A DNA stretch of 64,000 nt from Cellulomonas gelida (lineage in GTDB: Bacteria; Actinomycetota; Actinomycetes; Actinomycetales; Cellulomonadaceae): positions 1 to 64,000 of the forward strand of contig NZ_BJLQ01000014.1 of assembly GCF_006538725.1 (NCBI RefSeq), in the 5' to 3' direction. Position numbers and translations under genes: made by a program. The notes under the pieces were generated by a model. The model worked only from the letters and a program-made list of their open reading frames with translations, was not told the DNA's origin and searched no databases. Numbering within the stretch: position 1 is the stretch's first letter; every line of letters starts with the position of its first letter. Positions 5,414 through 40,332 of this stretch are shown piece by piece.

Positions 5414-6172
5414 ATGGGCGACCATGGGACGGAGCGCGCGGCTCAGCCGCGGACGGGCGTGCAGGAGCCCGGCGCACGCGTGACGTTGCTCGGCGACTTC
5501 CGCCTGCAGGTGGCCGGGAGGTCGGTCGAGCTCGGCGGGTCGTGCCGGCGGGTCGTCGCCCTGGTGTGCCTGCGCGGAGCGGTGCCCCGGGCACGTGCGG
5601 CGGGCACGCTGTGGCCGTCGGTCGCGGACCAGCGCGCGGGGGCGAACCTGCGCACGGCACTGTGGCGGGTGGGCCTCGTGGCGCCGTTCGTGCTGCGGGT
5701 CGACCGGGGCTGGGTCGAGCTGGGACTCGCGGTCACGGTGGACGTGCAGGACCTCACGCAGCGGGCGCTGGCCGTCGACGAGCCCGACGACGAGGTCACG
5801 TCGCTGTCGCGGCTCGCGGACGCGGACCTGCTCCCGGACTGGGACGACGAGTGGGTCGCGGAGGACCGTGAGCGCGTGCGACAGCTGCGGCTGCACCTGC
5901 TCGAGGCCGTGGCCCGCCGGCTCGCGTCCGAGAGCAGGTTCGCGGCGGCGGTGAACCTCGCGCTGACGGCGCTGCGCGCCGACCCGTTGCGCGAGAGCGC
6001 GCACCGCACCGTGATCGCGGTGCACCTCGCGGAGGGCAACCTGGCCGAGGCCCGCCGCGCGTTCGCCGCGTGCCGTCAGCTGCTGCGCCGCGAGCTCGGA
6101 GTCGAGCCGTCGGCCGCAACCGCGGCGCTCGTCGCGCGCCTCGTGCCCGACCGTGCGCTCAGCTCAGCGTGA
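5414..6172 (+). CDS. SARP/AfsR-family transcriptional regulator with BTAD domain
   Basis: 252 residues. Residues ~22-90 resemble the OmpR-type winged-helix of SARP regulators (VTLLGDFRLQVAGRSVEL, ANLRTALWRV). Residues ~95-245 match the bacterial transcriptional activator domain (HRTVIAVHLAEGNLAEARRA, LLRRELGVEPS). It faces the contractile-injection cluster tail to tail, and its last 14 bases overlap the 3' end of the 2021-residue gene. It is the only regulator-like gene next to the cluster. Two GTGACGACG repeats in its own upstream region (5332 and 5356) could allow autoregulation. SARP sites are typically 11-bp-phased heptamers, and such repeats occur upstream of the sheath gene. Control of the cluster is inference. 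Confidence 0.8.
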   Translation: MGDHGTERAAQPRTGVQEPGARVTLLGDFRLQVAGRSVELGGSCRRVVALVCLRGAVPRARAAGTLWPSVADQRAGANLRTALWRVGLVAPFVLRVDRGWVELGLAVTVDVQDLTQRALAVDEPDDEVTSLSRLADADLLPDWDDEWVAEDRERVRQLRLHLLEAVARRLASESRFAAAVNLALTALRADPLRESAHRTVIAVHLAEGNLAEARRAFAACRQLLRRELGVEPSAATAALVARLVPDRALSSA

Positions 6173-9100
6173 AGTCGCAGGTGAGTGTCTGGGACGAACC
6201 GCCGTCACCGACCTGCACCGACAGCGTGTAGGTCCCGGTGGTCGCGGTGTCGGCGAACTGCACGCGGAACGCCGAGCCGGTCGCCCCGAGGAAGGCTGCG
6301 GCGTCGGGTGCGTCCGCGCGGGAGACCGGGTCGGCCGTGCCCGAGGGCGGTGCGGCGCCGTTGATCGAGGTGATCGCCGGGGGAGTCGTGACCGGCGCCG
6401 GGACCAGGAGGAAGGCCTCGGTGCCGCGCGCGAGGGTCGTGAGCTCGGTGGCCTCCCGACGGGCAGCGTCGCGCAGCGGGAGCGTCGCGACGACCTCGAC
6501 GGTCAGGGTCCGCACGGGCACGTGCAGGTCGCGCGACAGGTGCATGCCGGCGCGGGCCAGCCCACCCTGGTAGTGCCCGTCGGTCGCGGCGTGCAGACGG
6601 CTGACCTCGACCGGGACGGGCGTCGTGGTGGCGGAGCGGGCCGTGAGCCGCGCGGCCGTGTCGATCACCAGCGCACCCGTGGGCTCGAGCGCGGTGACCT
6701 GGTGGATCCGCGGCACCGCCGGGGCGATCACGAGGTCGACCGACTGGAACGGCACGAGGGTCAGGTGGTCGCTCGTGCCGGGTGCGGACGCGTCCAGCGT
6801 CTGGCCGGCACCGGTCACCGTGACGTCGTCGACCCGCACGTCGAACCACAGGGGCTGGCGCCCGGCCGCGACCGCGTCGACCGACTGCTGGGCGCCGCCG
6901 ATCCCGTTCCGGGTCGTCACGCGGTGGGTTCCTGGGCGCGTGAACGCCGCGTAGACCGCCTGGTTGCGCTCGATGCGCGCGCCGGCGGGCACCGTGCCCA
7001 GGTCGGAGGCCCGGAAGCCGAGCGGGTCGGGCGTTCCCGCCGCCGGGTCCGTCACGGCGATCGCGCGAGGGTCGGGGTCGCGCTCGGTGAGGTCGCTCGC
7101 GACGAACGTGCCCGGGTCGGTGACGGTCGGGTTGGGGACGGTCGTGCCGTTCGGCGCGGCGGACGTGCCGACGGCGGCTCCGTTCGGCATGAGCCGCAGG
7201 TCGCGCGTGAGGTGGACCCCCGGCGCGTCGAGGCGTCCGTCCTCGACGAAGGACGTGCTGGAGGACTCGGGCCAGTAGCGGTACCGCATGACGTCGCCGA
7301 CGACGGCGTGGGCGGTGGTGAGCCCGTCGTGCGTGACGTCGCCCGTCAGACGCCCGAGCGGGGAGTACACGTCACCGGACTCGCTCGAGGCCTCCTGCTC
7401 GATCTGCGACTTGTGGGCGTTGGCGTCACCCGGGAACATCCGGTCCCACCACAGGTGGCCGAACGGCAGGAGCGAGAAGTTCTGCGTGCCGAGCAGCCAG
7501 CGCATCACGCGCAGCAGCCAGCGCGTCCAGTCGCCGGGCGCCACGGCGGGCTCGACCTGCCCGTACGGGTCGAACAGCCACTTCATCCAGCCCATGCCCA
7601 TCTCGACCATCGCCGAGGAGTCGGCGTTGCCGAGCGGGTCGCTCGCGCCCACGCGTGCGACGCGGACCGACAGCTCGTCGCCCGTGACGGGCACGGCGGT
7701 GGACAGCTCGACGCGCCCGCCGCTCACCGCGAGCACGTCCGTCCGGAACGGCCGCCCGGCGCGGTAGCGGACGACCACGCGGTCCTCCGGCGACAGGCCG
7801 TGCCCGCTGCCGAGGTCGATCGCGAAGTGGTTCGCGGCGTCGATCGTCCCCGCCTTGTACGAGTACCAGTCGAACGCGCTCTCCGGCTCGTGCGAGTCGT
7901 AGCCGCCCACCCGGACGTCGCCGGTGAAGGCGACGGCCTCGGTGAGGGTGAGGGTCGTGCCGTCCTTGGTCGCGGACCGGATCACGGTGTCCTCGCCGCG
8001 CCGGATCGTGACGCGGCCCGTCGCCGGGAGCTTCTCGGCGTCGGCGGCCTGCGCGAGCGTGAGCGTCGTCCCGCCCGCGCCGACCGTCGCCGCGAACAGG
8101 TCGCCCGTGCCGACCATCGCGCGGCCCAGCCCGTAGAACGCCTTGCCCACGAGCCAGAAGATGCCGCCCCACGTCGTGCCCGCGAGGAGGTTGACCAGGC
8201 CCCCGTGGGTCATGAGGTCGAGGATCGCGAACGGGACGTCGAAGCCCCCGACCGCCTGCTTCTTGCGCACGGCGACGCGCCCCGTGGGCAGCGCGCCGTT
8301 CTCGACCCGGACGCTGAACTCGTCGCCGGTCACGGCGGTCACCGACGCCTCGACGATCCGCGCGCCCTGAACGACCTGCAACGTGGCGCCAGAGCCGATC
8401 GAGACGGTGGCGTGCTGCGGGATCGTGACCGACCACGTGCCGCCGGTCCCGGTGGCCACCGTCGCGTCGAGGAACGCCGAGAACTCGGGCAGCTCGGTGT
8501 CGCTCGCCAGGATGCCGGGCAGCTCGAGCGCGATCATCGGGAACGCGCAGAACCACAGCGGGCCCCAGCGGTGGTACTGCACGGTGTGCGTGAGCTCGTG
8601 GTTGACGAGGGACTGCCCGCGGTCGATCTCGGTGGGCTCCTCGTCGGGCACGAGCAACGTGCCCGGCCCCAACGTCGCGGTCCGCACGTCGCCGACCGGC
8701 TCGAGCGCGACGACGACGACCGACTGGTTCGCGGCGGTCGTCAGCGGGGTCACCCCCGCCGGGACCTCGGCCAAGAGCAACGCGCCGTCGCGCGTGACGG
8801 CGTCGAAGAAGGCGGTGTCACGCGTGACGGTCGAGCCGGTGGTCGTGCTCGTGTGCGCGAAGGTCGACAGCGCGGCGCCGGTCGCGGTCACCGGTGTGGA
8901 GAACGTGACCTCCGCGACGGGCGCGTCGCCGTTCAGGATCACGGGGTGGGTGACCTCGCCGTCCACGATCCCGAGCACCGAGGTGGTGCCGCGCAGGTCG
9001 TCGGAGCGCCAGAGCGTGAAGGTGGCCGTGGTCGTCGCGCCGGTCCCGGTGCGAGTGCCGTCGGTGCCGAGGAACGGTCCGCCGGTGTCCGGGTCCGAGA

Positions 9101-12100
9101 CCGCGGCCTGCTGCACCGTGACCCCCGTCCCGACCGCTGCGGTGAGCGCGGGGCCGCCGGCCAGCGTCAGGCGACCGTTCGCGACCGACGCGACCCGGTG
9201 CCACGTGGTCGTGGCGCCCGCCGGGGTCACCGCCAGGATGTCGCCGGGCACCGCGCGCAGGAACGGCGCGGGGACCGTGGTGCCACCGGGCGGGGTGACC
9301 GTCCCGCGCAGGTCGACGGCGGCGGCCGAGGCGACGACCGCGTCGTAGGTGTAGCCGGTCGGCGCGAGCCGGACGAGCCTCAGGCCGGTCGCGCCGAGAT
9401 CGACCGCGGGGGCGAACGTCACGGCGCAGCGCAGCGAGCGGATCGCGGTCAGCTCGGTCCCGACGAGCACGGGCCGGCCGACCTGCAGCGCCGCTGCGAG
9501 CGCGGGCACCGGGGGCGTGGCCGTGGAGGGCGTGGGCGTGAACGTGCCGGACACCGCGTCGCCGGTCAGCCGCGAGGTCGCCGTCGGCGGCTCACCGGTG
9601 ACGCGCGTGAGCATGACGGGCATGCCCTCGAAGCGCTCGGGCGAGGGGACGGCGATCGCGAGCAGGTTCGTGCTGACGACCGACGTGATCGCCGAGCCGG
9701 AGGTCGTCCACCGTTCGACGATCCACGGCCCGCTGCCGACGAGCGGGCGGTCGAGCACGACGACGTCGTGCGTCGGTGCACCGGGCACGACGCGCGCGTG
9801 CGCGAGGCCCCCGCCCTCGACCCTCAGGACGACCGTGCCCGCGGACCCGTCGGGCGCGGTGCCCGCGGACACGGGCGTGTAGGTCAGGGCGGGGTCGGTC
9901 TCGACCGCGTCCGCGCGGGCGCCGAGCACGGTCCCGGCGGTGACGCTCCGGAACGACGTCGTGCCGGCGGGTGCGGCGACGTCGATGGTCACGACGCTCC
10001 CCGCGGGCGGTGCCTCGACGCGCACCCCGGTGCGCGTGCCGCCCTCGACGACGCCCGTCGCGCCCTGGCCGGGGGGTGTCGTCGGTCCGAAGTCGAGCGT
10101 CGTGCCGCTCGGGGTCACGGTCTGGTTCGGGCCGAGCGTCCCGGCCGCGACGGAGATCGGGGAGGCGAGCGTGCCGGGCAGCGGGCGCTCGAGGGGGAGC
10201 CGCGCCTCGAGCCGGGCCACGCGCGCGACGAGCACCTGACCGGTCGCCGCGGTCAGCCGCAGCAGGTCTCCCGCGGCGTACGTCGCGGTGGTGCCGCGCG
10301 CGCTGAAGGAGTTCGCCGGCGCGCCGGCGGGTCGGGACTCGCTGGACGCGGGCGCCGCGGCGAGCGGGGTCACGGTCAGCGCGGCGCCGGTCAGCGGGAG
10401 GTCCTCGGTCAGCTGGACGCGTTCGCCCATGGGCACGGGCAGCACGCCGAGCACGGTGGCGATCGCCATCGCGGTGCCGTCGTCGACGAGGATGCGTGCG
10501 CCGGCGGCGAGCCCGGTCGGCGCGGGCGCCGTCAGCACCGAGCGGAGCTCGAAGTCGCCGGCCGCCACGGGCCCGGCCCGCAGCTCGGTGAGCGTGGCGG
10601 TCACGTCGTGCCGGGTGTCCAGGCGGGTCCGGTCGAGGTGCAGCCCACCCGACGGGAACCACGGCGTGAGCGTGCCCGGTGCGGCAGGCACGCCCACGCC
10701 ACCGTGCCGCGTCCACGCGGTGAGGTCACCGGGCAACCACGGCGCGCTCGTCGGGCCGCACGCGAGGAGGGACGCCGCCGCTCCCGTCGGGGCCAGGGAC
10801 AGGTAGGTGCCGTAGTGGGTCGGCTCGTACCGACCGAGCGGGTCGACGACCTCGCCGCGCTGCAGCTCCTCGAACGCGCTGTCGGGCGCCCACACGATGT
10901 GCTGCGTGGTGAAGGCGCGGCCGCCCGTGATGACGTTCATGAAGCCGTCGCGTCGCACGCCGAACGCGCCGAGCCGGTCGGTCGTGCTCATGCCGGTCGA
11001 GCTGAAGAAGTCGTACTGGCTGCCCGCGAAGGGCGCGGCGATCAGGCTCATGAAGAGGTTGAACCACCAGTCGATCCCGAAGAACGACATGATGTTGTTC
11101 TGGAACGACCACGTCAGCGTCGACAGGACCAGGCCTCCGGACACCCCGCCCGTGGGGTCCGACCGGCCGACCGGGTCGCCCCGGCACACCTCGTACGCCG
11201 ACCGCGGCGCGCTCTCGACCGGCAGCGGGCCCTCGTACCCCGCCGGCCGACGAGGGTCGTCGTCCCCGCCGTCGCACGGGTCCGGCTCGCCGAAGGTGCC
11301 CGTGGTCGGGTCGAGGCGGCGCAGCGGCAGATGGACGACCTGCCCGTGCACGCGGCCGCCGAACAGCCCAGGGACCCCTGGGTGGCGCAGCAGCGCCTCG
11401 CCGTACGCGTCGCGGGGGATCCGCAGCGCGTCGCGGCTGGTCAGCACGCGCACGGGCGTGCCCGACGGGTCGAGGCTGAACACGGCGCCCAGCGGCGCAC
11501 CGAGCGGGCCGTCGACGCGCGCGAGGCACCGCATGCCGTCCCACAGGTACACCGCGCGCACCCGGCCGTCGGCGTCCCGCGTGACCCAGGTGCGGCCGTC
11601 GTCGTCCACGACGTCGCCCGCGGGCCGGGCCGCGACCGTGCGCCGGCCGCGGTCGTCGTACGTCAGGACCCGGGTGCCGGTCTCGTCGTGGACCTCGCGC
11701 ACGCGGCCGTCCGGGCCGAGCACGAGGCGGCGTGCGGTGCCCGGGCCGCGGACCTCGACGAGCCCGTGCGGACCATGGGTGTACCACCAGCGGTGCGACG
11801 AGGGCGCCGGGTCCGGGCCGCCGGGCAGGCACGCGACCACGCGGCCGAGCGCGTCCCGGCGCACCTCGACCCCGTCGACGAGCGTGAGGTCGTCGCCCTC
11901 CCAGCGGTAGTGCTCGCTCCACGACGGGCCGACGACCGGATGCACCTCGCGCACGAGCGAGCCCTCACCGATCCGCTCGACGCTCCGGGCGACGCCCGGC
12001 CACGTCCGGGTACCGTCCCGGTCCACGACGAGGTAGTCCCGCCCGCCGCCGCGCAGCGCGACGAGGACACCCGACGAGCCGTCCCGCTCGATCTCGAGCA

Positions 12101-12224
12101 CTCCCGCGGCGCCCAGGTCGAGCTCGTCGGTCTGCGTGCCGAGGTCCGGTCCCGGACCGGGCTGTGCCGGACCGGGCTGTGCCGGGGCGGCCGCGGGCGT
12201 GCGGGTCGGGTCGGTGATGGTCAT
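6159..12224 (-). CDS. Giant RHS/YD-like protein with HELTH metallopeptidase-like motif (candidate CIS cargo)
   Basis: 2021 residues, no signal peptide. After a proline-rich N-terminus (~1-30), residues ~40-300 carry YD-type repeats (YDDRGRRTVAARPAGDV, RRDALGRVVA). Near residues 300-350 there are RHS-core-like motifs LRRLDPTTGTFGEPDP and DPVGRSDPTGG. A hydrophobic/aromatic stretch follows, then long beta-rich modules. NHELTHTVQYHRWGP begins at residue 1208, with the HExxH histidines at 1209 and 1213. This resembles the DUF4157 peptidase motif common in eCIS cargo. Further repeated beta modules share the motif VTGDE(F/L)SVRV. It is the last gene of the CIS operon, which suggests an effector or an external fibre-like shell. 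Role is inference. Confidence 0.6.
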   Translation of the reverse strand: MTITDPTRTPAAAPAQPGPAQPGPGPDLGTQTDELDLGAAGVLEIERDGSSGVLVALRGGGRDYLVVDRDGTRTWPGVARSVERIGEGSLVREVHPVVGPSWSEHYRWEGDDLTLVDGVEVRRDALGRVVACLPGGPDPAPSSHRWWYTHGPHGLVEVRGPGTARRLVLGPDGRVREVHDETGTRVLTYDDRGRRTVAARPAGDVVDDDGRTWVTRDADGRVRAVYLWDGMRCLARVDGPLGAPLGAVFSLDPSGTPVRVLTSRDALRIPRDAYGEALLRHPGVPGLFGGRVHGQVVHLPLRRLDPTTGTFGEPDPCDGGDDDPRRPAGYEGPLPVESAPRSAYEVCRGDPVGRSDPTGGVSGGLVLSTLTWSFQNNIMSFFGIDWWFNLFMSLIAAPFAGSQYDFFSSTGMSTTDRLGAFGVRRDGFMNVITGGRAFTTQHIVWAPDSAFEELQRGEVVDPLGRYEPTHYGTYLSLAPTGAAASLLACGPTSAPWLPGDLTAWTRHGGVGVPAAPGTLTPWFPSGGLHLDRTRLDTRHDVTATLTELRAGPVAAGDFELRSVLTAPAPTGLAAGARILVDDGTAMAIATVLGVLPVPMGERVQLTEDLPLTGAALTVTPLAAAPASSESRPAGAPANSFSARGTTATYAAGDLLRLTAATGQVLVARVARLEARLPLERPLPGTLASPISVAAGTLGPNQTVTPSGTTLDFGPTTPPGQGATGVVEGGTRTGVRVEAPPAGSVVTIDVAAPAGTTSFRSVTAGTVLGARADAVETDPALTYTPVSAGTAPDGSAGTVVLRVEGGGLAHARVVPGAPTHDVVVLDRPLVGSGPWIVERWTTSGSAITSVVSTNLLAIAVPSPERFEGMPVMLTRVTGEPPTATSRLTGDAVSGTFTPTPSTATPPVPALAAALQVGRPVLVGTELTAIRSLRCAVTFAPAVDLGATGLRLVRLAPTGYTYDAVVASAAAVDLRGTVTPPGGTTVPAPFLRAVPGDILAVTPAGATTTWHRVASVANGRLTLAGGPALTAAVGTGVTVQQAAVSDPDTGGPFLGTDGTRTGTGATTTATFTLWRSDDLRGTTSVLGIVDGEVTHPVILNGDAPVAEVTFSTPVTATGAALSTFAHTSTTTGSTVTRDTAFFDAVTRDGALLLAEVPAGVTPLTTAANQSVVVVALEPVGDVRTATLGPGTLLVPDEEPTEIDRGQSLVNHELTHTVQYHRWGPLWFCAFPMIALELPGILASDTELPEFSAFLDATVATGTGGTWSVTIPQHATVSIGSGATLQVVQGARIVEASVTAVTGDEFSVRVENGALPTGRVAVRKKQAVGGFDVPFAILDLMTHGGLVNLLAGTTWGGIFWLVGKAFYGLGRAMVGTGDLFAATVGAGGTTLTLAQAADAEKLPATGRVTIRRGEDTVIRSATKDGTTLTLTEAVAFTGDVRVGGYDSHEPESAFDWYSYKAGTIDAANHFAIDLGSGHGLSPEDRVVVRYRAGRPFRTDVLAVSGGRVELSTAVPVTGDELSVRVARVGASDPLGNADSSAMVEMGMGWMKWLFDPYGQVEPAVAPGDWTRWLLRVMRWLLGTQNFSLLPFGHLWWDRMFPGDANAHKSQIEQEASSESGDVYSPLGRLTGDVTHDGLTTAHAVVGDVMRYRYWPESSSTSFVEDGRLDAPGVHLTRDLRLMPNGAAVGTSAAPNGTTVPNPTVTDPGTFVASDLTERDPDPRAIAVTDPAAGTPDPLGFRASDLGTVPAGARIERNQAVYAAFTRPGTHRVTTRNGIGGAQQSVDAVAAGRQPLWFDVRVDDVTVTGAGQTLDASAPGTSDHLTLVPFQSVDLVIAPAVPRIHQVTALEPTGALVIDTAARLTARSATTTPVPVEVSRLHAATDGHYQGGLARAGMHLSRDLHVPVRTLTVEVVATLPLRDAARREATELTTLARGTEAFLLVPAPVTTPPAITSINGAAPPSGTADPVSRADAPDAAAFLGATGSAFRVQFADTATTGTYTLSVQVGDGGSSQTLTCDFTLS

Positions 12225-12228
12225 GGCG

Positions 12229-15462: not shown

Positions 15463-15472
15463 GACGGGCTCC

Positions 15473-17841: not shown

Positions 17842-17844
17842 GCG

Positions 17845-19530: not shown

Positions 19531-19557
19531 GACGCACTCCTTCGGACGACGGTCCGG

Positions 19558-20505: not shown

Positions 20506-20518
20506 CACCGGGCCCCTT

Positions 20519-21016: not shown

Positions 21017-21026
21017 GGTCGCTCCC

Positions 21027-22298
21027 TCAGCTCAGCACGGAGTCGTCGAAGTCGGTCACGTCGAACGTCGCGCCGGAGTCCGGCAGCGAGTCGGCGCCGG
21101 TCGGGCCGGCGGCCCGGAAGGTGCGCGGCCAGATCCCGACGAGGTGCGCCTCGCCCGGCTGTCGTTCGGTGAACGCGCGCAGCACCACGTCCGCCGCGAT
21201 CCCCGCACCCGCGGTGCGGTCGACCGCCGTGTCGAGCCCGGCCTCGAGCCGCCCGCGCGCGAGCACGGCGTCCTCGGCTCCGCCCGGCTGCGACGTCAGC
21301 GTCGCGGCGTGCAGGCGCACCTCGAGCGTGGCGGGCTGCGCCTCGACCCACGCGACGCGCGCGGACACGAGCGCCGGCTGGGCGAACAGCGAACGGTCGA
21401 ACGCGGTCGTGTCGAACCGCGCCTGGGTGAGCGTGTCGTCGGCCATCGCGAGCAGGTACCGGCCGAGACCGGGGGAGTCGTACGTCGCGAGCGGGAGGAA
21501 CCACAGGACGTTCGTGCCGCGGGCGAGCGCGCCGGCCGCGAGCGTGGTCGCGGGGTCGCCGGGCCCACCCGCGCCCGCGGTCAGGTCCGTCCAGACCGTG
21601 AGGCGGTCGGTCACGTCGTTGCCGTCGAGGTCGGCCCGAAGCAGTGCGCGGTCGGCGGCCGACGGCGCGATCGTCAGGCGTTGGCCGAGGGCGAGCGACC
21701 CCCGGAACAGCACGGCGTGGCCCGTGGTGCGGTTCACGACGAGCGGTGAGTGCTCGGGCGCCTCGCTGATGCCGCGCAGCACGACCGCCCAGGGCGCCGG
21801 GTCGAGGCCCCGGTTCTCGACCTCGAGGTGCGCGAGGGGCTCCCACCCGCCGGAGTCCGGCAGGCGTGCGTCCCGGATGCGCGGAGGGTTGTCGAGGAGC
21901 TGGGGGCCGCGCTCGTCTGCGGCCCATGCGTCGATGCGGGCGACCGTGCGGATCCCCGCGGCCTGCTGGAACCCCTCGGCGTAGTCGCTGACGAGCGCCC
22001 GCAGCGCCTCGCGCGTCACCGCACCGAGCTGCAGGCGCGCCCGCACGATCGCGTGCACCCACGCGCGGAACTCGCCGAGCCCGGCGTGGAACGGCTCGGG
22101 GGGGATGTCGAGCAGCGCCGCCAGGGCGACCGCCTCGTCGAGGTCCGGCGTCGAGTCGAACCAGTGCGCGCGCTGCACCGAGACGCCGGCCTCGTCGAGC
22201 CCGTCGAGCTGCACGCCCCACGTGCCGGCGAACGAGCCGATCACCTCGCCCTCGCGGTACAGGGTCGGCAGGTGCTCGAGCACGGCGTCGGTGCGCAT
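21027..22298 (-). CDS. Baseplate wedge protein, gpI/Afp12-like
   Basis: 423 residues. It opens MRTDAVLEHLPTLYREG, the LP-x-(L/I)-Y-R entry typical of tail protein I/Afp12 baseplate proteins. A helical wedge domain follows, with DLDEAVALAALLDIPPEPF and a long beta-rich extension (VEAQPATLEVRLHAATL). Its ATG overlaps the gpJ-like stop by one base (TGATG), so the two are translationally coupled, as in P2 gpJ-gpI and Afp11-12. Together these two form the baseplate wedge. Confidence 0.78.
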   Translation of the reverse strand: MRTDAVLEHLPTLYREGEVIGSFAGTWGVQLDGLDEAGVSVQRAHWFDSTPDLDEAVALAALLDIPPEPFHAGLGEFRAWVHAIVRARLQLGAVTREALRALVSDYAEGFQQAAGIRTVARIDAWAADERGPQLLDNPPRIRDARLPDSGGWEPLAHLEVENRGLDPAPWAVVLRGISEAPEHSPLVVNRTTGHAVLFRGSLALGQRLTIAPSAADRALLRADLDGNDVTDRLTVWTDLTAGAGGPGDPATTLAAGALARGTNVLWFLPLATYDSPGLGRYLLAMADDTLTQARFDTTAFDRSLFAQPALVSARVAWVEAQPATLEVRLHAATLTSQPGGAEDAVLARGRLEAGLDTAVDRTAGAGIAADVVLRAFTERQPGEAHLVGIWPRTFRAAGPTGADSLPDSGATFDVTDFDDSVLS

Positions 22299-24085
22299 CA
22301 GGCACCTCCCTCGCGGACGTCGAGCGCGACCGAGCGGATCTCGGCGCGGTCGTCGGTGCCGAGCGGGTGTGCGCCCAGGCCGTCGGCGAGGCGCAGGAAC
22401 CGGTCACCCGCCTCGGTGGTCAGCGCGACGTCGCTGCGCACCACGGCGTAGCGCGTGTCGTCCCGCACCGCGGCGATGAACGCGTCGACGGTGATCGCGG
22501 TGCCGGGCCGCAGGGCGGTGGCCCACGAGCGTGCGGCCAGGCCCATCGCCTGCTCCGCGTCGCTCGCGGTGACGCCCGGCGAGAGGTGCACGGGCACGAG
22601 CGCGTCGACGAGGACCGTCGCCCCCGGGCCCGCGCCGCCCTCGGTGCTCACGAGGTGCGTGAACGGGGCGACGGGTGCGAGCACGGTGCCCGCAGGTGCC
22701 GTGACGGACGGCTGCGGCCCGGCGCCGATGTCGAGCCCGAACGTCGCGTCCACGATGCGCGGGTCGGACAGCGCGGCCGCGGACAGCGGGCCCGGACGTG
22801 CCGTGCCGCCGGGCGGCAGGTCGCGCAGCACCGCGGTGACCCGCTCCTCGAGCGCCGCCTGCAGGGACGCGAGCTCGGCGCCCCCGACCCCCGTCCCCGC
22901 GAGCACGAGTGTCGCCGTGACCTGCACGGGTGTCGTCGCGGTGCGGCCCGGGGTCACGCGGATCCCCGCGGGGCGCAGGTCCTCGATGCGCTCGGCGACG
23001 AGCGCGAGCAGCTCGGGCGTGGGCTCGCCGTCGTAGGCGATGGCGAGCGCGACCTCACCGGGCAGGCCGTGCGGGAACTCGGTCGCGGTGACGTCCTGCA
23101 CGCCCTCGAGGTTCTTGACGCCCATCGTCAGCGCGTCGAGCGTGCCGCGCGCCGCGACCGCGAGCGCGCCGCGTGCGCGGCGCCGCAGGTCGTCGTCCGA
23201 CTCGGCTCCACCGGCGGCTGCCGCCGGCGACTCGTTGCCCACCTCGCCGATACCCGCGATGAGCACCTCGAGCCGGTCGAGCTCACCCGCGCCGACCGCG
23301 GGGGTCGCGGGCGACACCGCAGCGGCGAGGACCTCGCGGGACTCCTCGCCGACCTCGAGCACGAGCGGGACGGTCGTCGCGTACCGGTTCGAGTGCGCGT
23401 CGGCGACCACGGTCCCGACGGGCACCGTGATGCGTCCGGACGACCCGGCCGAGCGCGTGAACCGCACGCGTGCGGTGGGCACGCCCCCGGGACGACGGAC
23501 GATGCCGACGAGCGCCACGACCTTGTCGAGCGACGTCCCTTGCGCGCTCTCGACGTACGCCGAGCGGTACACGGCCTCGAGCTGGAGCTCGACGAGCGCG
23601 AGCTCGCGGGCCACGGCCTCGAGCAGCGTCCGGGCGACCGAGCCGACGTTGAGGTCGGTGATGGGCGCAGGCCGGGCCTGCGACGGGTAGTAGTTGACGA
23701 CGACCGTCGAACCCGTGGGGGGCTTGCGGCCCGTCGGGCGGAACCGGATCGCGTCGCGCTCGGCGCCGTGCTGGCCGGTGGCGACGACCTCGAAGTCCGC
23801 GTCGGTGAAGCGGTACGGCACGGGCACGGTCTCGCTGACCGCCTCACCCTGCGCGTCGCGCACGACGTCGCCGTTGACGTCGCGCAGCGGCCGGGTGACC
23901 TCGACAGTGCCCTGCAGGTGGCTGACGCGGCGGATCGGCCGGTCGTGCAGCGCGTCCAGCACGACGAGGTCGCCGGCCGGGACGGTGACGACCTCGCGGA
24001 CCGTCCCGCCCGTGAGCGTGGTCAGCGTGTCGCGCACGATCTCGGGGTACGGGCGCGGCGAGAAGCCGTCCGGCAGGCCGTTCAC
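22298..24085 (-). CDS. Baseplate wedge protein, gpJ/Afp11-like
   Basis: 595 residues from GTG 24085, whose GTGA overlaps the stop of the gp25 gene; the upstream frame extension has shadow composition. A central region matches the baseplate J family: LALVELQLEAVYRSAYVESA, GTSLDKVVALVGIVRRPG, then GVKNLEGVQDVTATEFPHG with GEVALAIAYDG. The C-terminal SVALDVREGGA closes the protein. In contractile tails this subunit links the gp25-bound sheath initiator to the baseplate periphery. Confidence 0.85.
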   Translation of the reverse strand: MNGLPDGFSPRPYPEIVRDTLTTLTGGTVREVVTVPAGDLVVLDALHDRPIRRVSHLQGTVEVTRPLRDVNGDVVRDAQGEAVSETVPVPYRFTDADFEVVATGQHGAERDAIRFRPTGRKPPTGSTVVVNYYPSQARPAPITDLNVGSVARTLLEAVARELALVELQLEAVYRSAYVESAQGTSLDKVVALVGIVRRPGGVPTARVRFTRSAGSSGRITVPVGTVVADAHSNRYATTVPLVLEVGEESREVLAAAVSPATPAVGAGELDRLEVLIAGIGEVGNESPAAAAGGAESDDDLRRRARGALAVAARGTLDALTMGVKNLEGVQDVTATEFPHGLPGEVALAIAYDGEPTPELLALVAERIEDLRPAGIRVTPGRTATTPVQVTATLVLAGTGVGGAELASLQAALEERVTAVLRDLPPGGTARPGPLSAAALSDPRIVDATFGLDIGAGPQPSVTAPAGTVLAPVAPFTHLVSTEGGAGPGATVLVDALVPVHLSPGVTASDAEQAMGLAARSWATALRPGTAITVDAFIAAVRDDTRYAVVRSDVALTTEAGDRFLRLADGLGAHPLGTDDRAEIRSVALDVREGGA

Positions 24086-24534
24086 AGGTCCACCCCCAGT
24101 CCGACGGACACGGGCTCGCCGCCCGCGACGGGCTGCACCGTGAGCAGGAAGCGCAGCTCCGACGGCCCCTCGGACGCGATGTCGAACGCGAGCTCGACGA
24201 CCTCGTCCTCGACCCGGGGCTCGGCCGCCACGGCCTCGAGCACGAAGGTCTTGCACCGCGCGCGGCTGGCCTCGTCCTTGCGCTCGCCGATGAGCTCGTG
24301 CAGGCGCGAGCCGTACTCGCCGTGGCCGAGGTCGCTCAGCGCGCCGCGCGGCGTCAGGAGCCGCAGCACGAGTGCCTGCCCGAGGTTGTGCCGACCGTCG
24401 AGCAGCAGCGGCCCGTCGGCGGCGCGGTCCACCACGCCCGCGCCGAGGCGCAGGTCGAGCGCCGAGCCGTCGTGCGCGCCCATCGCGGGCGGGCCGAGCA
24501 GCACGCGCAGGTCGGTGCCGAGGACGTCGTTCAT
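24082..24534 (-). CDS. gp25/gpW-like baseplate protein
   Basis: 150 residues. The core NLGQALVLRLLTPRGALSDL then HGEYGSRLHELIGE matches the gp25/W family, in which this protein bridges the baseplate wedge and nucleates sheath polymerisation. The C-terminus ELRFLLTVQPVAGGEPV adds the usual terminal beta strand. It overlaps the PAAR-like gene upstream and the gpJ gene downstream by 4 bases each. Its presence between spike/PAAR and gpJ is the standard eCIS order. Confidence 0.85.
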   Translation of the reverse strand: MNDVLGTDLRVLLGPPAMGAHDGSALDLRLGAGVVDRAADGPLLLDGRHNLGQALVLRLLTPRGALSDLGHGEYGSRLHELIGERKDEASRARCKTFVLEAVAAEPRVEDEVVELAFDIASEGPSELRFLLTVQPVAGGEPVSVGLGVDL

Positions 24535-24932
24535 CCGGCCATCACCGTCCCGACCGGCCCGATGATCGCGCCCGTGGTCTGGTCGCTCGGGTCGTTGCAG
24601 GTCGTGACCAGGTCGCCGACGCGTGCCAGCCCCTTGCCGCCGACCTTCACGGTGCTCGAGGCCTGGTCGACCGTGCCGGCGTCGCTGGGCGGGGACTGGA
24701 ACGAGACGCCAGGTGGCATCGCGATGTGCTTCGGGCTGTTCTCGGTCGTGCTGTCCTTCGTGGCCGCGGGCTTGCCGGCGATCTTCACGGTCGAGACGGT
24801 CGCGCCCGAGACCTTCGCGACGAACGGGTGCGGCAGCGGCGTCGGCACGCTGCCCGCGGGGGTGGGCACGAGCACGATGTGGATGTCGACCCCCACCACC
24901 TGGGCGTCCTGGCCGACCGCGGGGGAGCCCAT
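24531..24932 (-). CDS. PAAR-like spike-tip protein
   Basis: 133 residues from ATG 24932. It shows the proline/glycine-rich repeats of the PAAR/DUF4150 fold: DIHIVLVPTPAGSVPTPLPH, ISMPPGVSFQSPP-type turn (SPKHIAMPPGVSFQSPPSD), VKVGGKGLARVGDLVTTC and a terminal GAIIGPVGTVMAG. Such proteins cap the trimeric spike as a sharpened tip and can carry cargo. It lies immediately downstream of the gpV-like spike gene, the expected partner. Confidence 0.8.
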   Translation of the reverse strand: MGSPAVGQDAQVVGVDIHIVLVPTPAGSVPTPLPHPFVAKVSGATVSTVKIAGKPAATKDSTTENSPKHIAMPPGVSFQSPPSDAGTVDQASSTVKVGGKGLARVGDLVTTCNDPSDQTTGAIIGPVGTVMAG

Positions 24933-25582
24933 CAGTTCACCTCCACGACGCCACCGGAGACCTTGACCTTGCCCGAGCCGTCGATGACGATCTCGGGCGC
25001 CTTGAGCGTGAGCTTCGACGACGCCTCGAGGCTGACCTCGCCGTTGCCGCCGAGCGTCAGGGTGCTGTCCTTCGCCTTGGCCGTCAGCGTCCCGGGGGAG
25101 GCGCCGTCGACGACGAGCGCGCAGTCGCCGATCGTGACCTTCGCGGAGTCCTGCGCGATCTCGACCTGCACGTCGCCGACCGTCAACGTGATCTGCGGTG
25201 TGGCCGCCTCGATCTGCAGGTCGACCTTGGTGTCGCCGGGCGGCAGCTGCAGCACGACCTTGCCGTCGGCGTTCTCGGGCGGTGCGAGGTCCCGGTGGTA
25301 GAGGCGTCCGACGACGACACCCGCGTGCGGGTCGCCGTCGGCGAACGCGACGACGACGAGGTCGTCGACCGCGGGCGTCGCGACGAACCCGAGCGCCCCC
25401 ACCGCGACCGGAAGGTGCGGCACGACGACGCCCGAGTCGCGCAGCTTCACGCTCACGCTGTGGTCGGGCGTGCCCGCGGCGGTCGTGTGGACGTCCGTGA
25501 CCGAGCCGATCGTCACCCACGAGCGCGCGTCGGCCTCGTGGCGCGCGATGCGCGCGACGGCGTCGTACAGCAGGTCGGTCAC
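24932..25582 (-). CDS. Spike protein, gpV-like (C-terminal half of a split VgrG)
   Basis: 216 residues from GTG 25582. Residues ~25-90 form the OB-fold (VTDVHTTAAGTPDHSVSVKL, PAVDDLVVVAFADGDPHAGV, VVGRLYHRDLAPP). From ~95 onward come short repeats such as VDLQIEAATPQITLTVGDVQ and LTLGGNGEVSLEASSKLTL, the triple beta-helix needle. In many eCIS the hub and spike are one VgrG-like chain (Afp8). Here the hub is the separate upstream gene, overlapping this one by 4 bases. Confidence 0.85.
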   Translation of the reverse strand: MTDLLYDAVARIARHEADARSWVTIGSVTDVHTTAAGTPDHSVSVKLRDSGVVVPHLPVAVGALGFVATPAVDDLVVVAFADGDPHAGVVVGRLYHRDLAPPENADGKVVLQLPPGDTKVDLQIEAATPQITLTVGDVQVEIAQDSAKVTIGDCALVVDGASPGTLTAKAKDSTLTLGGNGEVSLEASSKLTLKAPEIVIDGSGKVKVSGGVVEVN

Positions 25583-26601
25583 AGCAGGCCTCCCAGTCCG
25601 CCGGCGAGCCCGCCGAGCAGCCCGCCCAGCAGGTCGTCGGACGCGCCCGCGGCCACGCCGACGAGCGTGGTCCGTGCGAGCCGGGGGGCGAGCTCGTGCC
25701 GCACCGACGTCAGGAGCCACGGCCCAGCCTGCGCCGAGTCGGTGGTCTCGTCGATCCGCACGACGTCGCCGGGTCGGCGTGCGGGCTGCAGCCAGCACGT
25801 GGCGCGCATGCGTGCGGTCGACGCGGCCCGGCGGCTGGTGGCGCCGCGCGCCGCGAGGTCGACGTCGGTGCGGGTGCGCAGGACGGGGTCCGGCGTCCAC
25901 GTGCGGGAGCCGTCGGGGTCGTCGGCACCCGTGACCGCCTCGGTGCTGGGCACCCACACGTCGGGGGACAGCGCGGCACCCGATCCGCCCGCTCCCACGG
26001 GCGTGAAGTCGTGCCCGGGCGTGTGGTTCGACGTGGTGAACGACGTGAACTCGCGGTCGAGCCGCATCGCGGCCGTCGGGACGCCGACGGGCCACGCGAC
26101 GACCGTGACCCGGCCCTCGGCGTCCACGACCGCGACCGCGTCGGAGCGCGCGGCGATCGCCGCGACGTGCTCGGCGGCGGTACGCCGCGGGTCGGCCACG
26201 TACGCGGCGGTCTGCGTGAGCGCGGCGACCGGTCCGGTGTCCGCCGACGCGAGGTCGGCGAGCTTGCCGACCACCTGTACGCCGGTGAGCCCGTTGTAGG
26301 TCTCGGCGGGCCGCGCCGCCGCGAGCGCGGCGCCCGCGTCGGTCACGACGACCACGGCCCCCGTCGTCGTGTGCGCGACGTGGTCGACCGTCCCCGTGAT
26401 GACGACCGCGGCGCCGTCGCCGCCGTCGAGCTCGACGCTCGCGCGCGCGCCCGTGCTCGCGGGCACGTCGACCCCGGCGGCGATCGCGACCTCGACGCGG
26501 TTGACGCCCGGCAGCAGGACGAGCTCGGCTGCGACCGACCTGATCTGCACGGTGTACTGCAGGTCGTCGAGCGTGACGGTCGCGCCGGTGGTCAGCGTCA
26601 T
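25579..26601 (-). CDS. Baseplate hub protein, gpD-like
   Basis: 340 residues. The N-terminus MTLTTGATVTLDDLQYTVQI leads to a gpD-type hub: ELVLLPGVNRVEVAI, then YNGLTGVQVVGKLADLASAD, HVAAIAARSDAVAVVDAEGR and, in the C-terminal ring, RRPGDVVRIDETTDSAQAGP, WLLTSVRHELAP. The tail ends in a Gly/Leu run (DDLLGGLLGGLAGGLGGLL). It forms the trimeric hub between tube and spike. Overlap with its neighbours on both sides supports co-translation. Confidence 0.78.
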   Translation of the reverse strand: MTLTTGATVTLDDLQYTVQIRSVAAELVLLPGVNRVEVAIAAGVDVPASTGARASVELDGGDGAAVVITGTVDHVAHTTTGAVVVVTDAGAALAAARPAETYNGLTGVQVVGKLADLASADTGPVAALTQTAAYVADPRRTAAEHVAAIAARSDAVAVVDAEGRVTVVAWPVGVPTAAMRLDREFTSFTTSNHTPGHDFTPVGAGGSGAALSPDVWVPSTEAVTGADDPDGSRTWTPDPVLRTRTDVDLAARGATSRRAASTARMRATCWLQPARRPGDVVRIDETTDSAQAGPWLLTSVRHELAPRLARTTLVGVAAGASDDLLGGLLGGLAGGLGGLL

Positions 26602-27308
26602 GAGCCGAACACCCCACCCAGTGCGTCGAGCGCGGTGCCGAGCTGCGCACCCGAGTCCTCGAGCGAGCGCTGCACGTCCTGCACGGGCGCGAGCACGCCG
26701 TCGAAGTCGAACGACGCGAGCCCTGCGAGCGCGGAGAGCGCGTCGACGGCCGCGAGCGCACCCTCGACGGCCCCGGCGACGTCGCCCGCGAGGTCGGCGA
26801 GGTCACCGAGCAGGTCGGTGTCGAAGCCCAGGTCGCCGAGCCCGAAGTCGTCGAGCCCGCCGAACCCGGCGAGCTGGGCGGGCGGCGGCAGGGGCGGGCT
26901 CTCCGCGAGCTCGACGACGATCTCGACGACACCGGGACGCCCGGCGACCTCGCTCGCGGCCAGGCGCGTCACGACGACCTGCTGGAGCTCGAGCGCGGTG
27001 ACGATGTCCGCGGAGAACGTGGTCGCCTCGCCCGAGGCCGCGAGCGTCTGCAGCGCGGCGAGGTCGTCGAGCGCGGTCGGCCCGGCGAGCACGGCCGCGA
27101 TGGCCATGCGGTGGCTCGGGCGGCCGCTGCGCTGCTGCGCGTACCCCTGCAGCCCGAGCACCGGCACGTCCACGAAGCCGCCGTCGAGCGCGTGGTCGAC
27201 GCGCTGCGCGGCCGTGAGCGTGACGTCGCCGATCACGGGCATCGGGCGTGCGCCCGACGACGGGGCGGTCGAAGGCAGCCCGCTGGGCAGACCGGTGGGC
27301 AGGCTCAT
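26598..27308 (-). CDS. CIS protein at the LysM/gp53-like position (family uncertain)
   Basis: 236 residues from ATG 27308. The first ~120 residues form a beta-alpha domain (MPVIGDVTLTAAQRVDHALD, PVLGLQGYAQQRSGRPSHRM, AIAAVLAGPTALDDLAALQT, FSADIVTALELQQVVVTRL). The rest is low-complexity Asp/Leu/Gly helix (LGDLADLAGDVAGAVEGA). Its place just before the gpD hub is where PBSX and eCIS put the LysM protein (XkdP/Afp7), but I see no LysM motif. The N-terminal domain recalls phage DNA-circularisation/hub-adaptor proteins. Assignment is positional. Confidence 0.5.
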   Translation of the reverse strand: MSLPTGLPSGLPSTAPSSGARPMPVIGDVTLTAAQRVDHALDGGFVDVPVLGLQGYAQQRSGRPSHRMAIAAVLAGPTALDDLAALQTLAASGEATTFSADIVTALELQQVVVTRLAASEVAGRPGVVEIVVELAESPPLPPPAQLAGFGGLDDFGLGDLGFDTDLLGDLADLAGDVAGAVEGALAAVDALSALAGLASFDFDGVLAPVQDVQRSLEDSGAQLGTALDALGGVFGS

Positions 27309-28693: not shown

Positions 28694-28705
28694 GGTCGAC
28701 CGACC

Positions 28706-29086
28706 TCACCGCTCCTCGCGCACGCGCGTCGCCGTGAACGCGTAGACCGTCTCGCCGTGCCCGCCGGCGCTCATCGCGAAGGACTTCTCCGTCATGAGGC
28801 ACTCGTCGAAGCTCACGGTCACGGTCGTGCCGCCCTGCCGCAGCGGCGCGGTGATCTGGAAGAAGTCGTCGCCGACGAGCGCGTCCAGGTCCGGGGCCGA
28901 CGACGCGACCCGGATACGGCCCTCGACGTTGCGCGGCCCGGTGACCACGCCGATGCGCTCGGACGACCCGAGCGCGTAGAGGTCCTGGCGGACCGTGGCC
29001 GAGCGGTGCTCGACCGAGCGCACGCCCTCGACGGGGGTGCCGTTGACCAGGACGGAGCTCTCGTTGGCCGCATACACGGTGGGCAT
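28706..29086 (-). CDS. Inner tail-tube protein
   Basis: 126 residues, with GAGAGG-type SD six bases before ATG 29086. MPTVYAANESSVLVNGTPVE begins a small beta-barrel sequence containing DLYALGSSERIGVVTGPRNV, EGRIRVASSAPDLDALVGDD, then TVSFDECLMTEKSFAMSAGG and YAFTATRVREER. Size, strand pattern and position immediately after the sheath gene fit the hexameric tube subunit. Ten bases separate it from the sheath stop. Only one tube gene is present, whereas Afp/PVC clusters carry two or three. Confidence 0.75.
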   Translation of the reverse strand: MPTVYAANESSVLVNGTPVEGVRSVEHRSATVRQDLYALGSSERIGVVTGPRNVEGRIRVASSAPDLDALVGDDFFQITAPLRQGGTTVTVSFDECLMTEKSFAMSAGGHGETVYAFTATRVREER

Positions 29087-29096
29087 GACGCGCCTC

Positions 29097-30791
29097 TCAG
29101 TTCTTCACGCGGATGGTGGCGTAGACGAAGTCGATGGCCCGTACGGGGCGCACCGCGATGTCGATGCGGACGTTGCCCTGGGCGAAGTCGAGCTGCGTCG
29201 AGTAGACGTCGACCAGGAACGCGGGGTCGGTGCCGTCGGTCGACGGCACGAGCTCGCCGGCACGTTCCATGCGCGTGAACGTCGCGACGATCTGCTGGCG
29301 CAACGCGGTGCGTGCGTCGACGGTGTTGAGCTCGCCGATGAAGTTCTCGGCGATCGCCTTGACCTCGCGCACGCACGCGTCGGCGACACGGGTCACCGAG
29401 ATCTGGTCGCCGGTCGTGTCGAGGCCGCGCAGCACGATCACGCCGCGGCCGGAACGGTCGGCGACGACGAGCGCGTTGTGCGTCGGGCCGAGCAGACGGT
29501 TCAGCTCGCTGTCCGTGTAGCGGGCCGGTGGGATACCGAACAGGGGGACCGGCTTGAACGTCGGCGAGACCGACGGTCCGGTGCGCGCGACCGACCCGAT
29601 CACGGCGCCCGCAGCGCCCGCCGGGGTCACGAGCACGAACCTGCGGTTGCGGACGCCCGCCGCGTGGTCGCGGATCCGGTCGAGGTTCGTCTGCTCGGCG
29701 ACCGTGACGGACCCGAAGGCGATCCGCGGCGCACCCGCGTCGGCCTGGGCGACCGCGTGCGCGACCAGCGCCTGGTGCACGACCTGCACGAACGCCTCGG
29801 TGCGCGTCGGCTCGAGCGACGCGGTCACGAGGCTGATCCGGGGGTCGGTCGCGAGCAGGTTGATCGCGTCCTGGTAGTCGGCCGCCGACGGCGACGTGCC
29901 GCCGGTCAGCGGCGTCGGCGAGATCGCGACGGGCAGCCGGTCGGGTGCGGCGAGCGACGACGCCTGCCGGACGTGCACCAGCGCGCTCTCGCGCAGCACG
30001 ACCGCGGGCAGGTAGTTCGCCGAGTCGGGGTTCATCGTCAGGCGCGTGAACTCCTCGGACTGCGCGCCGTCCCGGAACACCCGCACCCGCACGTTGTCGG
30101 CGGACGGCGACAGGATCTCGACCGTCAGCCCCGTGGGGTCGACCTCGGCCTCGGGCAGCAGGGTGAACAGCGTCTGAGCGGCCCCCGAGCGGGGGACGTC
30201 CACGCCCGTGCCGTCGGCGGGGAGCACGTAGGTGCCCGCGGCGGGGAGCGTGTCGGCGAGCGACGGGTCGAGCGCGACGAGGTACAGCGATCGCGTGTTG
30301 ATGGTGTCCAGCAGGTCCTGGTGGGAGCCGGGCTCGACGACGAGGTCGGCGAACTCCTCGACCACCTGACCGCCGCGCAGGACCCGCAGGCTCACGCGCA
30401 CGGTCTCGCCCGCGGCGTTCGTCACGGTCCGCACGTCGACGGAGACCTGGTTGGCCCACGTGCCGACCGACCGGGCGCGCAGCAGCACGGCGTCCGTCGA
30501 CACCGCGTTGCGCAGGACGAGCGAGGCCGCGCCCCCGCCGGTCACCGGCGCGACGAGCACCTCCGAGGCGCCGTTCGCGAGCGCGTGCACGATCTCGGGA
30601 GCCGACGCGACCGTGCCGGGGCCGAGGCTCCCGGGGATCTCGGCCGCGCGGGACAGCCCCACCAGCGCGGCGGGGACGGGTGGCCGGTCGACGATGCCGA
30701 CGATGCCGACGACGCCCGACGACGCGGGTAGCGGCGGCAGGACGTCGAACCGCGTCTCGACCTGCACTCCGGGTACGACGAGCGTCGCCAT
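29097..30791 (-). CDS. Contractile tail sheath protein
   Basis: 564 residues, first gene of the operon. The N-terminus MATLVVPGVQVETRFDVLPP is the sheath entry motif that invades neighbouring subunits. The central insertion (~120-300) is variable. The C-terminal contractile domain includes GDQISVTRVADACVREVKAI, ENFIGELNTVDARTALRQQI, VDVYSTQLDFAQGNVRIDIA and AIDFVYATIRVKN. ATG 30791 has an excellent GGAGGAAG SD five bases upstream, but that SD lies in a long inverted repeat (see the hairpin entry). Sheath contraction drives the tube and spike into the target. Confidence 0.93.
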   Translation of the reverse strand: MATLVVPGVQVETRFDVLPPLPASSGVVGIVGIVDRPPVPAALVGLSRAAEIPGSLGPGTVASAPEIVHALANGASEVLVAPVTGGGAASLVLRNAVSTDAVLLRARSVGTWANQVSVDVRTVTNAAGETVRVSLRVLRGGQVVEEFADLVVEPGSHQDLLDTINTRSLYLVALDPSLADTLPAAGTYVLPADGTGVDVPRSGAAQTLFTLLPEAEVDPTGLTVEILSPSADNVRVRVFRDGAQSEEFTRLTMNPDSANYLPAVVLRESALVHVRQASSLAAPDRLPVAISPTPLTGGTSPSAADYQDAINLLATDPRISLVTASLEPTRTEAFVQVVHQALVAHAVAQADAGAPRIAFGSVTVAEQTNLDRIRDHAAGVRNRRFVLVTPAGAAGAVIGSVARTGPSVSPTFKPVPLFGIPPARYTDSELNRLLGPTHNALVVADRSGRGVIVLRGLDTTGDQISVTRVADACVREVKAIAENFIGELNTVDARTALRQQIVATFTRMERAGELVPSTDGTDPAFLVDVYSTQLDFAQGNVRIDIAVRPVRAIDFVYATIRVKN

Positions 30792-35535: not shown

Positions 35536-35542
35536 CGTACCC

Positions 35543-40290: not shown

Positions 40291-40302
40291 CACTGCAGGT
40301 CA

Positions 40303-40330: not shown

Positions 40331-40332
40331 GA

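Follow-up and report, generated by a model that had tools for sequence, protein, structure and literature searches.

A 17-gene block for a probable headless contractile injection system without an AAA+ ATPase in Cellulomonas gelida, conserved across phyla

What kind of machine is encoded by a cluster of contractile-tail genes that holds no phage head, no lysis genes and no AAA+ ATPase? The question is raised by a 64,000-nucleotide stretch of Cellulomonas gelida DNA (assembly GCF_006538725.1, contig NZ_BJLQ01000014.1, positions 1 to 64,000 of the forward strand; hereafter the window), in which an initial annotation had placed a contractile injection system (CIS) cluster at 6159–30791. That span is exact: it is a single operon of 17 minus-strand genes, from the sheath ATG at 30791 to a final stop at 6159, with intergenic gaps of at most 27 bp and overlaps at 8 of its 16 junctions. 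According to one published account, clusters for phage-like protein-translocation structures (PLTS) always have an AAA+ ATPase, a fundamental characteristic of PLTS and of type VI secretion systems (T6SS) with no pyocin homologue, whereas they have no lysis systems, and gpD and gpV are separate in several of their groups (PMC4122934). By these traits, the missing lysis genes and split spike of the C. gelida block are ordinary and its missing ATPase is unusual.

The block contains the parts of a contractile tail in a fixed order, with predicted tube and terminator folds and with no AAA+, head or lysis family among its proteins, and this arrangement is conserved across phyla. We consider it probable that it encodes a self-contained, horizontally spread headless CIS that forms its own family, has no AAA+ ATPase and carries its payload on a PAAR spike or as its giant last protein, g17. 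The system is described here from its genes and predicted folds.

We compared all 17 proteins with Pfam (E ≤ 1) and NCBIfam, and g01 to g16 with PHROGs. Pfam matches lie above cut-off for PAAR, Phage_base_V and Baseplate_J, and below it for Phage_sheath_1C, Phage_GPD, GPW_gp25 and eCIS_core; PHROGs agree with the sub-cut-off matches for the sheath (2e-24), the hub (5e-4) and the gp25-type protein (3e-13). Together with NCBIfam, these searches give sheath, gpD, gpV, PAAR, gp25 and gpJ in the proposed order. The tube, assigned by its predicted fold, follows the sheath, and a gene in the gpI position follows gpJ; two further genes (g03 and g04) are placed between tube and gpD, and seven genes (165–2021 aa) rather than the eight first counted come after the gpI position. 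The features, in operon order and followed by two regulatory ones, are:

29097–30791, minus strand: g01, contractile sheath, 564 aa (PHROG tail sheath 2e-24; Phage_sheath_1C 24.9 bits, cut-off 26.9)
28706–29086, minus strand: g02, tail tube by predicted fold, 126 aa
27305–28693, minus strand: g03, 462 aa (N-terminal region of about 200 conserved residues, then a linker of variable, low-complexity sequence; ADLRG near the C-terminus)
26598–27308, minus strand: g04, weakly assigned gpU/Dit-like hub-proximal protein, 236 aa (through sub-cut-off matches of its relatives)
25579–26601, minus strand: g05, gpD-like hub, 340 aa (Phage_GPD 1.3e-5, sub-cut-off; PHROG hub 5e-4)
24932–25582, minus strand: g06, gpV-like spike, 216 aa (Phage_base_V 28.5 bits, cut-off 23.8)
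24531–24932, minus strand: g07, PAAR tip protein, 133 aa (PAAR_motif 37.7 bits, cut-off 27)
24082–24534, minus strand: g08, gp25-like sheath initiator/wedge, 150 aa (GPW_gp25 8e-4 and Sheath_initiator 1.6e-3, both sub-cut-off; PHROG baseplate 3e-13)
22298–24085, minus strand: g09, gpJ-like baseplate wedge, 595 aa (Baseplate_J 75.6 bits, cut-off 21.1; PHROG gpJ-type wedge 1.5e-35)
21027–22298, minus strand: g10, gene in the gpI position, 423 aa (placed after gpJ)
20519–21016, minus strand: g11, putative tail-fibre/baseplate-type protein, 165 aa (PHROG 5417, of unknown function, 6e-19; alignment)
19558–20505, minus strand: g12, fibre/adaptor-like protein, 315 aa (conserved DWN and GH(D/N)HP segments in the alignment)
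17845–19530, minus strand: g13, putative coiled-coil fibre-like protein, 561 aa (in the alignment, N-terminus with WN/HxH as in g12 and C-terminal half variable)
16942–17841, minus strand: g14, predicted tail terminator (residues 1–165) with an Ig-like domain (residues 171–299), from structure prediction
15473–16945, minus strand: g15, 490 aa, conserved, no profile match, no role assigned
12229–15462, minus strand: g16, candidate tape measure, 1077 aa (PHROG tape measure 1e-5, which may reflect composition)
6159–12224, minus strand: g17, Rhs-like giant protein, 2021 aa (Rhs-like N-terminus, core-like motif, HELTHTVQ metallopeptidase-like motif)
5414–6172, plus strand: BTAD-type regulator gene, convergent with the operon (BTAD 56 bits, cut-off 22.1)
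30910–30927, minus strand: putative regulator site upstream of the sheath, direct repeat GTGACGC-N4-GTGACGC with an 11-bp period

The sheath profile finds no believable relative in the PDB, and by single-sequence phmmer the nearest matches of g01 are the CIS sheaths of Anabaena (E 0.04) and Algoriphagus (E 0.74). Similarly, g02 has no believable PDB relative by profile and no Pfam match, and hence is not a T4_gp19-family tube by Pfam; its predicted structure is the common tail-tube fold, which includes the antifeeding prophage (AFP) and Photorhabdus virulence cassette (PVC) tubes, and in this model g02 is the tube, a small single barrel. The g05 profile matches the spike protein 9gtr (Gp5/Vgr OB-fold) at 6e-12, and that of g09 matches the wedge 9ndy (4.7e-15) and TRI-2 (CD1371; 5.2e-7), which we take to belong to the diffocin. 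For g14, structure prediction gives a Pvc16 fold with the R2 pyocin collar as its nearest relative, so the Afp16/Pvc16 terminator of extracellular CIS (eCIS) and PLTS has a counterpart in the block, and the tail would be capped by a terminator with an Ig-like extension.

The remaining assignments are more tentative. Neither Pfam nor a PDB profile search finds a relative of the window's g04, and its gpU/Dit-like character is suggested by sub-cut-off matches of relatives in Syntrophus (DUF6046 3.4e-5, Dit_like 0.023, P2_GpU 0.11) and Alteromonadaceae (DUF6046 2.5e-4). g03, without a match in Pfam, PHROGs or the PDB, occurs in 10 of the 10 loci read, with an invariant C-terminal ADLRG, probably a docking peptide, behind its long variable linker; the protein may be an assembly chaperone or a docking protein. 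Likewise, g10 matches nothing in Pfam, PHROGs or the PDB and is present in every locus whose contig extends to it. g12, with no believable PDB relative by profile, is presumably a fibre or adaptor from its position and motif. The C-terminus of g13 is helix-hairpin-helix-like (sub-cut-off Pfam) in Syntrophus (L032:16446-17732) and Alteromonadaceae (L034:16859-18202) and is of other kinds in the other seven aligned versions. The length of g16 is nearly constant, at 1077–1095 aa across 9 loci, and reaches 1115 aa in G738, a divergent genome of the Paracoccus family. PADLOC, run on five proteins, returned no result.

Of 8000 candidates scored with g01 as query, 456 are related to it at E ≤ 1e-3, and the Syntrophus sheath as query gave 410, the two sets overlapping; among the matches listed (120 per sheath search), identity to the query is at least 58% and length is 553–590 aa bar two (471 and 510 aa). 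From genome contigs we obtained ten loci, seven of them readable through, and a genus search added C. palmilytica. The fully spanned set comprises the window, C. persica, C. uda, C. xylanilytica, C. palmilytica, Humibacillus, Paracoccus, Phytomonospora and a Syntrophus metagenome-assembled genome (MAG) (n = 9). In the eight loci besides the window, the sheath-to-g17 order recurs over 23.3–25.1 kb, beyond the actinobacteria too, and this conservation excludes chance as the origin of the block. By similarity to the window proteins, all 17 genes are found in five loci, 16 in Paracoccus and Syntrophus, and 15 in Phytomonospora; g03, unmatched in the last three, is there by position, with a related N-terminal region and the ADLRG C-terminus, and the Phytomonospora block has no PAAR gene, the search having covered the block and not the rest of that genome. 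Incomplete loci agree: an Alteromonadaceae MAG contig is collinear from g01 to g14, where it ends, and a second Syntrophus contig (g01–g12, g03 unmatched) and a Rhodothermaceae contig (g01–g02) break off near contig ends. Even in a divergent member of the Paracoccus family (G738; sheath identity 37–44%), the order is kept and 16 of 17 genes match at E ≤ 0.01, g14 only at 0.001. None of 95 flanking open reading frames has a cross-genus match (blastp, E ≤ 1e-5), so that the unit is the block itself.

Further sheath relatives, compared by the sheath alone, carry the names Nitronauta, Anaerolineae, Dehalococcoidia, Binatia and Sorangium. In the sheath tree, Paracoccus and Nitronauta fall on the Cellulomonas–Humibacillus side (86/100, unstarred by the tool) and the actinobacterium Phytomonospora outside it; the Paracoccus and Nitronauta sheaths are also closer to those of Cellulomonas than the Phytomonospora sheath is. 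Tree and identities together speak for spread by horizontal transfer. The block is rare in any single group: it was found in 5 of 81 genomes of the genus Cellulomonas; a phylum scan at E ≤ 1e-3 gave matches in 3 of 246 genomes, namely the window's own and two weak ones that are probably other sheaths; and, at E ≤ 1e-50, it was found in 1 of 298 genomes of the order of Phytomonospora (itself) and 2 of 295 of the family of Paracoccus (itself and G738). Of the suggestion that this is a distinct actinobacterial CIS subtype, the distinct subtype without AAA+, head or lysis genes is supported, and the actinobacterial label is not, given the blocks of Paracoccus and Syntrophus and the g01–g14 stretch of Alteromonadaceae.

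The absence of an ATPase was examined in several ways. Among the 17 proteins, Pfam reports nothing that belongs to an AAA, capsid, terminase, portal, holin or endolysin family, and at every locus examined the members of the 17 families are free of Walker A motifs, which confirms the proposed lack of AAA+, head and lysis genes; the AAA+ ATPase is missing from all 9 fully spanned blocks. Apart from one PHROG label on g02, discussed below, head, portal and terminase families are also absent from the block by NCBIfam and PHROGs, with part of the flanking genes profiled, and the lysis search by Pfam covered the block and not the rest of the genome. A positive control is at hand in the same genome (3.79 Mb, 91 contigs): its contigs C20 and C25 encode a further eCIS, of conventional type, whose two parts we infer to belong together. 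By the same methods it yields an AAA domain (93 bits), a CIS_tube-LysM protein, a T4_gp19 tube, Pvc16_N, a spike with a gpV domain and the length of a fused one (586 aa), and a 522-aa sheath with both sheath Pfam domains, so that the profile methods see an AAA+ ATPase and the like when present. With the resident ATPase as phmmer query (E ≤ 0.01), a search of every reading frame in the window and in nine fetched regions returns that ATPase and nothing else. The LysM/CIS_tube (Afp7) protein, present in the resident eCIS, has no match among the 17 proteins. Upstream of the resident sheath lies a 904-aa gene that by eye resembles a LuxR-type regulator.

A defective prophage remnant might be expected to look similar, since Mu and P2 tails share the order sheath–tube–gpU–gpD–gpV–gp25–gpJ–gpI with the block. 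However, its reading frames are intact and conserved across phyla, and it is a constant 23–25 kb unit without any head, terminase or lysis family. The g01 sheath has no relative in 50,697 phage records or in plasmids, and searches of viral contigs with one sheath sequence and with an alignment (17 and 122 pattern stretches) gave no relatives. g11 has no relative in phages, and gpJ (g09) none in plasmids; in phage records, only haloarchaeal viruses resemble gpJ (43 records), and then partially: the 12 of these 43 that were listed show 28–35% identity and cover 27–47% of gpJ. With no sheath relative in phages, plasmids or viral contigs, we reject a prophage origin. The block is not a decayed prophage, and it is not specifically actinobacterial; the remnant reading, which we rate as highly improbable, is already refuted by the conservation, unless relatives with heads exist.

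More can be said for a domesticated R-type tailocin, that is, a killing particle without a protein payload, whose lysis genes lie elsewhere and whose g17 is a giant fibre or cap. As in pyocins, there is no AAA+ ATPase; as in R-type tailocins and Mu–P2 tails, gpD and gpV are separate genes and the wedge is of phage type, its profile closest to phage and tailocin wedges; and the terminator is closest to the R2 pyocin collar. On the other hand, the block has a PAAR tip, which pyocin clusters lack by our reading of PMC4122934, an Rhs-like protein with an eCIS_core-like motif and a terminator placed after the fibre genes; it has no lysis cassette, its sheath is without phage relatives, and it is spread across phyla as a fixed unit. 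We regard the tailocin as unlikely.

The block could also be a diverged eCIS whose ATPase was lost or relocated, perhaps borrowing that of the second eCIS in the genome, where a conventional ATPase is present. With AFP, PVC and Streptomyces CIS it shares the headless plan, the sheath, tube, hub, spike, PAAR, gp25 and gpJ, a Pvc16-fold terminator in the 3' part of the cluster, an eCIS_core-like motif (sub-cut-off) in g17 and the lack of a lysis gene; its hub profile is closest to a Streptomyces CIS spike, its phmmer-nearest sheaths are the CIS ones above, weak as those matches are, and gpD and gpV are also separate in some PLTS. It differs in having no AAA+ ATPase in nine of nine fully spanned blocks, a tube outside the T4_gp19 family, no CIS_tube-LysM protein and a g10–g17 set of its own. 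Moreover, tube, g04, g10 and g14 appear unrelated to conventional eCIS parts by Pfam and hhalign, the latter a weak test with single-sequence templates, in which g14, g02, g04 and g10 gave nothing against the resident parts. The block sheaths group as a separate clade in the sheath tree, at a great distance from the conventional eCIS sheath of this genome, and their relation to conventional eCIS parts is only a remote one. Such an origin seems to us improbable.

Two other kinds of system invite comparison. T6SS share the PAAR tip and an Rhs-like giant protein in the cluster, whereas the block has one 564-aa sheath instead of TssB/TssC and, by profile search, no TssJLM-like membrane complex and no ClpV. 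The haloarchaeal membrane-bound CIS, whose cluster has two DUF4157 proteins, has an ATPase in the legend of its cluster figure and, in one clade, a six-helix putative membrane anchor (PMC11566945), neither of which we found in the block. No clear membrane anchor occurs in the block, where hydropathy peaks above 1.6 are confined to g06, g16 and g17 and all stay below 1.9. On the initial annotation's other suggestion, an intracellular CIS that acts without lysis, these findings are neutral: the block has neither a lysis gene nor a clear anchor, and known eCIS clusters are likewise without lysis genes.

If there is no loading ATPase, how would a payload be carried? Pvc15 is described as the loader of effectors into the tube (PMC11495950), and Rhs toxins as recruited by PAAR proteins at the tip (PMC8651086); for a cluster with PAAR and an Rhs-like giant and without ATPase, the simplest reading would be a payload carried on the spike. 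The N-terminal part of g17 is Rhs-like, with YD-type repeats that are plainest in G738, and its RHS_repeat (18 bits) and eCIS_core (20.7 bits) scores both lie below the cut-off of 22; eCIS_core matches g17 in 5 of 9 members at E ≤ 0.1. The core-like motifs LDPxxGxF...DP and DPVGRxDPxG occur in nine close loci, varied in Syntrophus, and were not found in G738. HExxHxxQ, which overlaps the sub-cut-off eCIS_core match, is kept in 10 of 10 g17 proteins, including that of G738, whose middle part can hardly be aligned otherwise. Beyond the Rhs-like N-terminus runs a long stretch without a profile match, and the PDB profile search finds no believable relative. Both a constitutive payload and a structural processing protein are possible roles. 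In Phytomonospora, g17 is without 281 aligned residues of the window's g17, a loss possibly linked to that of PAAR as the loss of a docking part.

Several observations weigh against the headless, ATPase-free CIS that we favour. g13 and g16 have sub-cut-off NCBIfam matches to long P-loop proteins, and the g16 of one locus has a DNAX-lid match, which we read as coiled-coil similarity. A NACHT/AAA_16-WD40 P-loop NTPase gene lies just upstream of the Humibacillus sheath, outside the block and not in the other hosts, and an ATPase might come in trans from the genome's own eCIS. g02 matches a PHROG labelled 'major head protein' (1.2e-4), a label that we overrule by the predicted tail-tube fold, leaving no AAA+ or head gene established by profile search among the 17 proteins. 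The tape-measure role of g16 has one PHROG match as its basis. Finally, leaving G738 aside, most of g17 can be aligned between phyla, unlike usual Rhs toxins, with no swapped C-terminus of the common Rhs-toxin kind among the nine close loci, and it is kept in Phytomonospora without PAAR, which speaks against an obligatory PAAR–g17 tip. As a separate observation, a CHAT-domain protein and the NACHT/AAA_16-WD40 protein are encoded on either side of the Humibacillus block (L025:9674-12133, minus strand; L024:30-3515, plus strand), kinds that often occur in conflict systems.

In the mechanism that we propose, a particle with a single sheath, a small single-barrel tube, a gpD hub, a separate gpV spike, a PAAR tip, a phage/tailocin-type wedge, fibre-like proteins, the candidate tape measure g16 and the cap g14 would assemble in the cytoplasm. 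The payload would ride on the PAAR spike or be g17 itself, and would not be pumped into the tube lumen; being outside the lumen, it would need no Pvc15-type loading ATPase. The invariant HExxHxxQ site might be used for payload maturation or be active inside the target. The particle might be set free by host lysis or be used within the cell.

In Cellulomonas, the adjacent BTAD regulator would switch the operon on through the 11-bp repeat, SARP-type (Streptomyces antibiotic regulatory protein) regulators being known to bind heptamers with that period. The BTAD gene stands, in convergent orientation, at the 3' end of the block in 5 of 5 Cellulomonas, the other site of C. xylanilytica included, and the repeat is exact in the same five, starting 125–138 bp before the sheath ATG; neither occurs in the fetched regions of non-Cellulomonas hosts. 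BTAD is listed among eCIS shell domains (PMC8213781). Exact copies in the genome number two, the second inside a response-regulator-type reading frame beside a sensor-like one (mtrA–mtrB by eye); since it sits inside a reading frame, a regulon with a second target is not suggested. Allowing one mismatch gives 13 genomic sites versus 3 for a reversed control pattern. In the window, 3 sites with at most two mismatches compare with 5.7 expected, so that weight is due solely to the exact match and to its being conserved. A scan of 4900–6600 found no pattern of a sigma-70-type promoter or of a terminator.

The block adjoins glnE in four of the five block-bearing Cellulomonas and lies on another contig in C. 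xylanilytica. In four CIS-minus genomes and in C. xylanilytica, the glnE site does not hold the block and shows neither sheath nor g17; at three of these five sites, glnE abuts an AI-2E transporter gene, with no more than 38 bp between the aligned ends, and the other two do not have this neighbour there. No tRNA lies in the window, and the stretches compared at the edges of the unit have no 12-mer in common. An esterase gene with a cellulose-binding domain (31059–32525) lies between the CIS and the window's AI-2E transporter gene; the regions fetched from the four other Cellulomonas contain no match to it. What seems a second island spans 34000–51900, from the AI-2E transporter gene to a glutamine synthetase gene (51942–53396), and a phage integrase gene (50687–51895) lies inside it.

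How does the family stand in published surveys? The initial annotation would have counted it as a refutation if the cluster belonged to a widespread, already-named eCIS family, and half of this applies: the family is widespread, and we found no name for it in the literature searched, most subscription journals and preprints being outside its reach. One survey leaves out by rule clusters with Cis13 and Cis14, the fibre and tape-measure genes, that lack Cis15, the ATPase (PMC12210884); another defines eCIS by ten core genes plus one eCIS-specific gene (PMC8213781). A Cellulomonas flavigena cluster is included in PMC4122934, and the C. fimi sheath in PMC9230969, at 523 aa, has the size of the resident conventional sheath and not that of g01. 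A 2026 catalogue (PMC12923769) shows an eBAP4 fibre of Cellulomonas sp000688475 and mentions a previously missed eCIS subtype (eBAP5), either of which may correspond to this system.

As a tentative extension, for which we claim less, the family may be a separate branch parallel to T6SS and ATPase-bearing eCIS in many phyla; it would deliver g17, a constitutive metallopeptidase of Rhs-like type, along with the PAAR spike or mounted on it, and without a loading ATPase. Most of this branch would have escaped counting, since surveys separate CIS from tailocins by the ATPase or by profiles of known CIS parts. With so large and uniform a family beyond the AAA+ dividing line, both the counts of CIS and the schemes of their evolution would have gaps, and the block would be a natural test of protein loading without an ATPase. 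It is a compact unit, present in named Cellulomonas culture-collection strains, and in C. gelida it shares a genome with a conventional eCIS for direct comparison.

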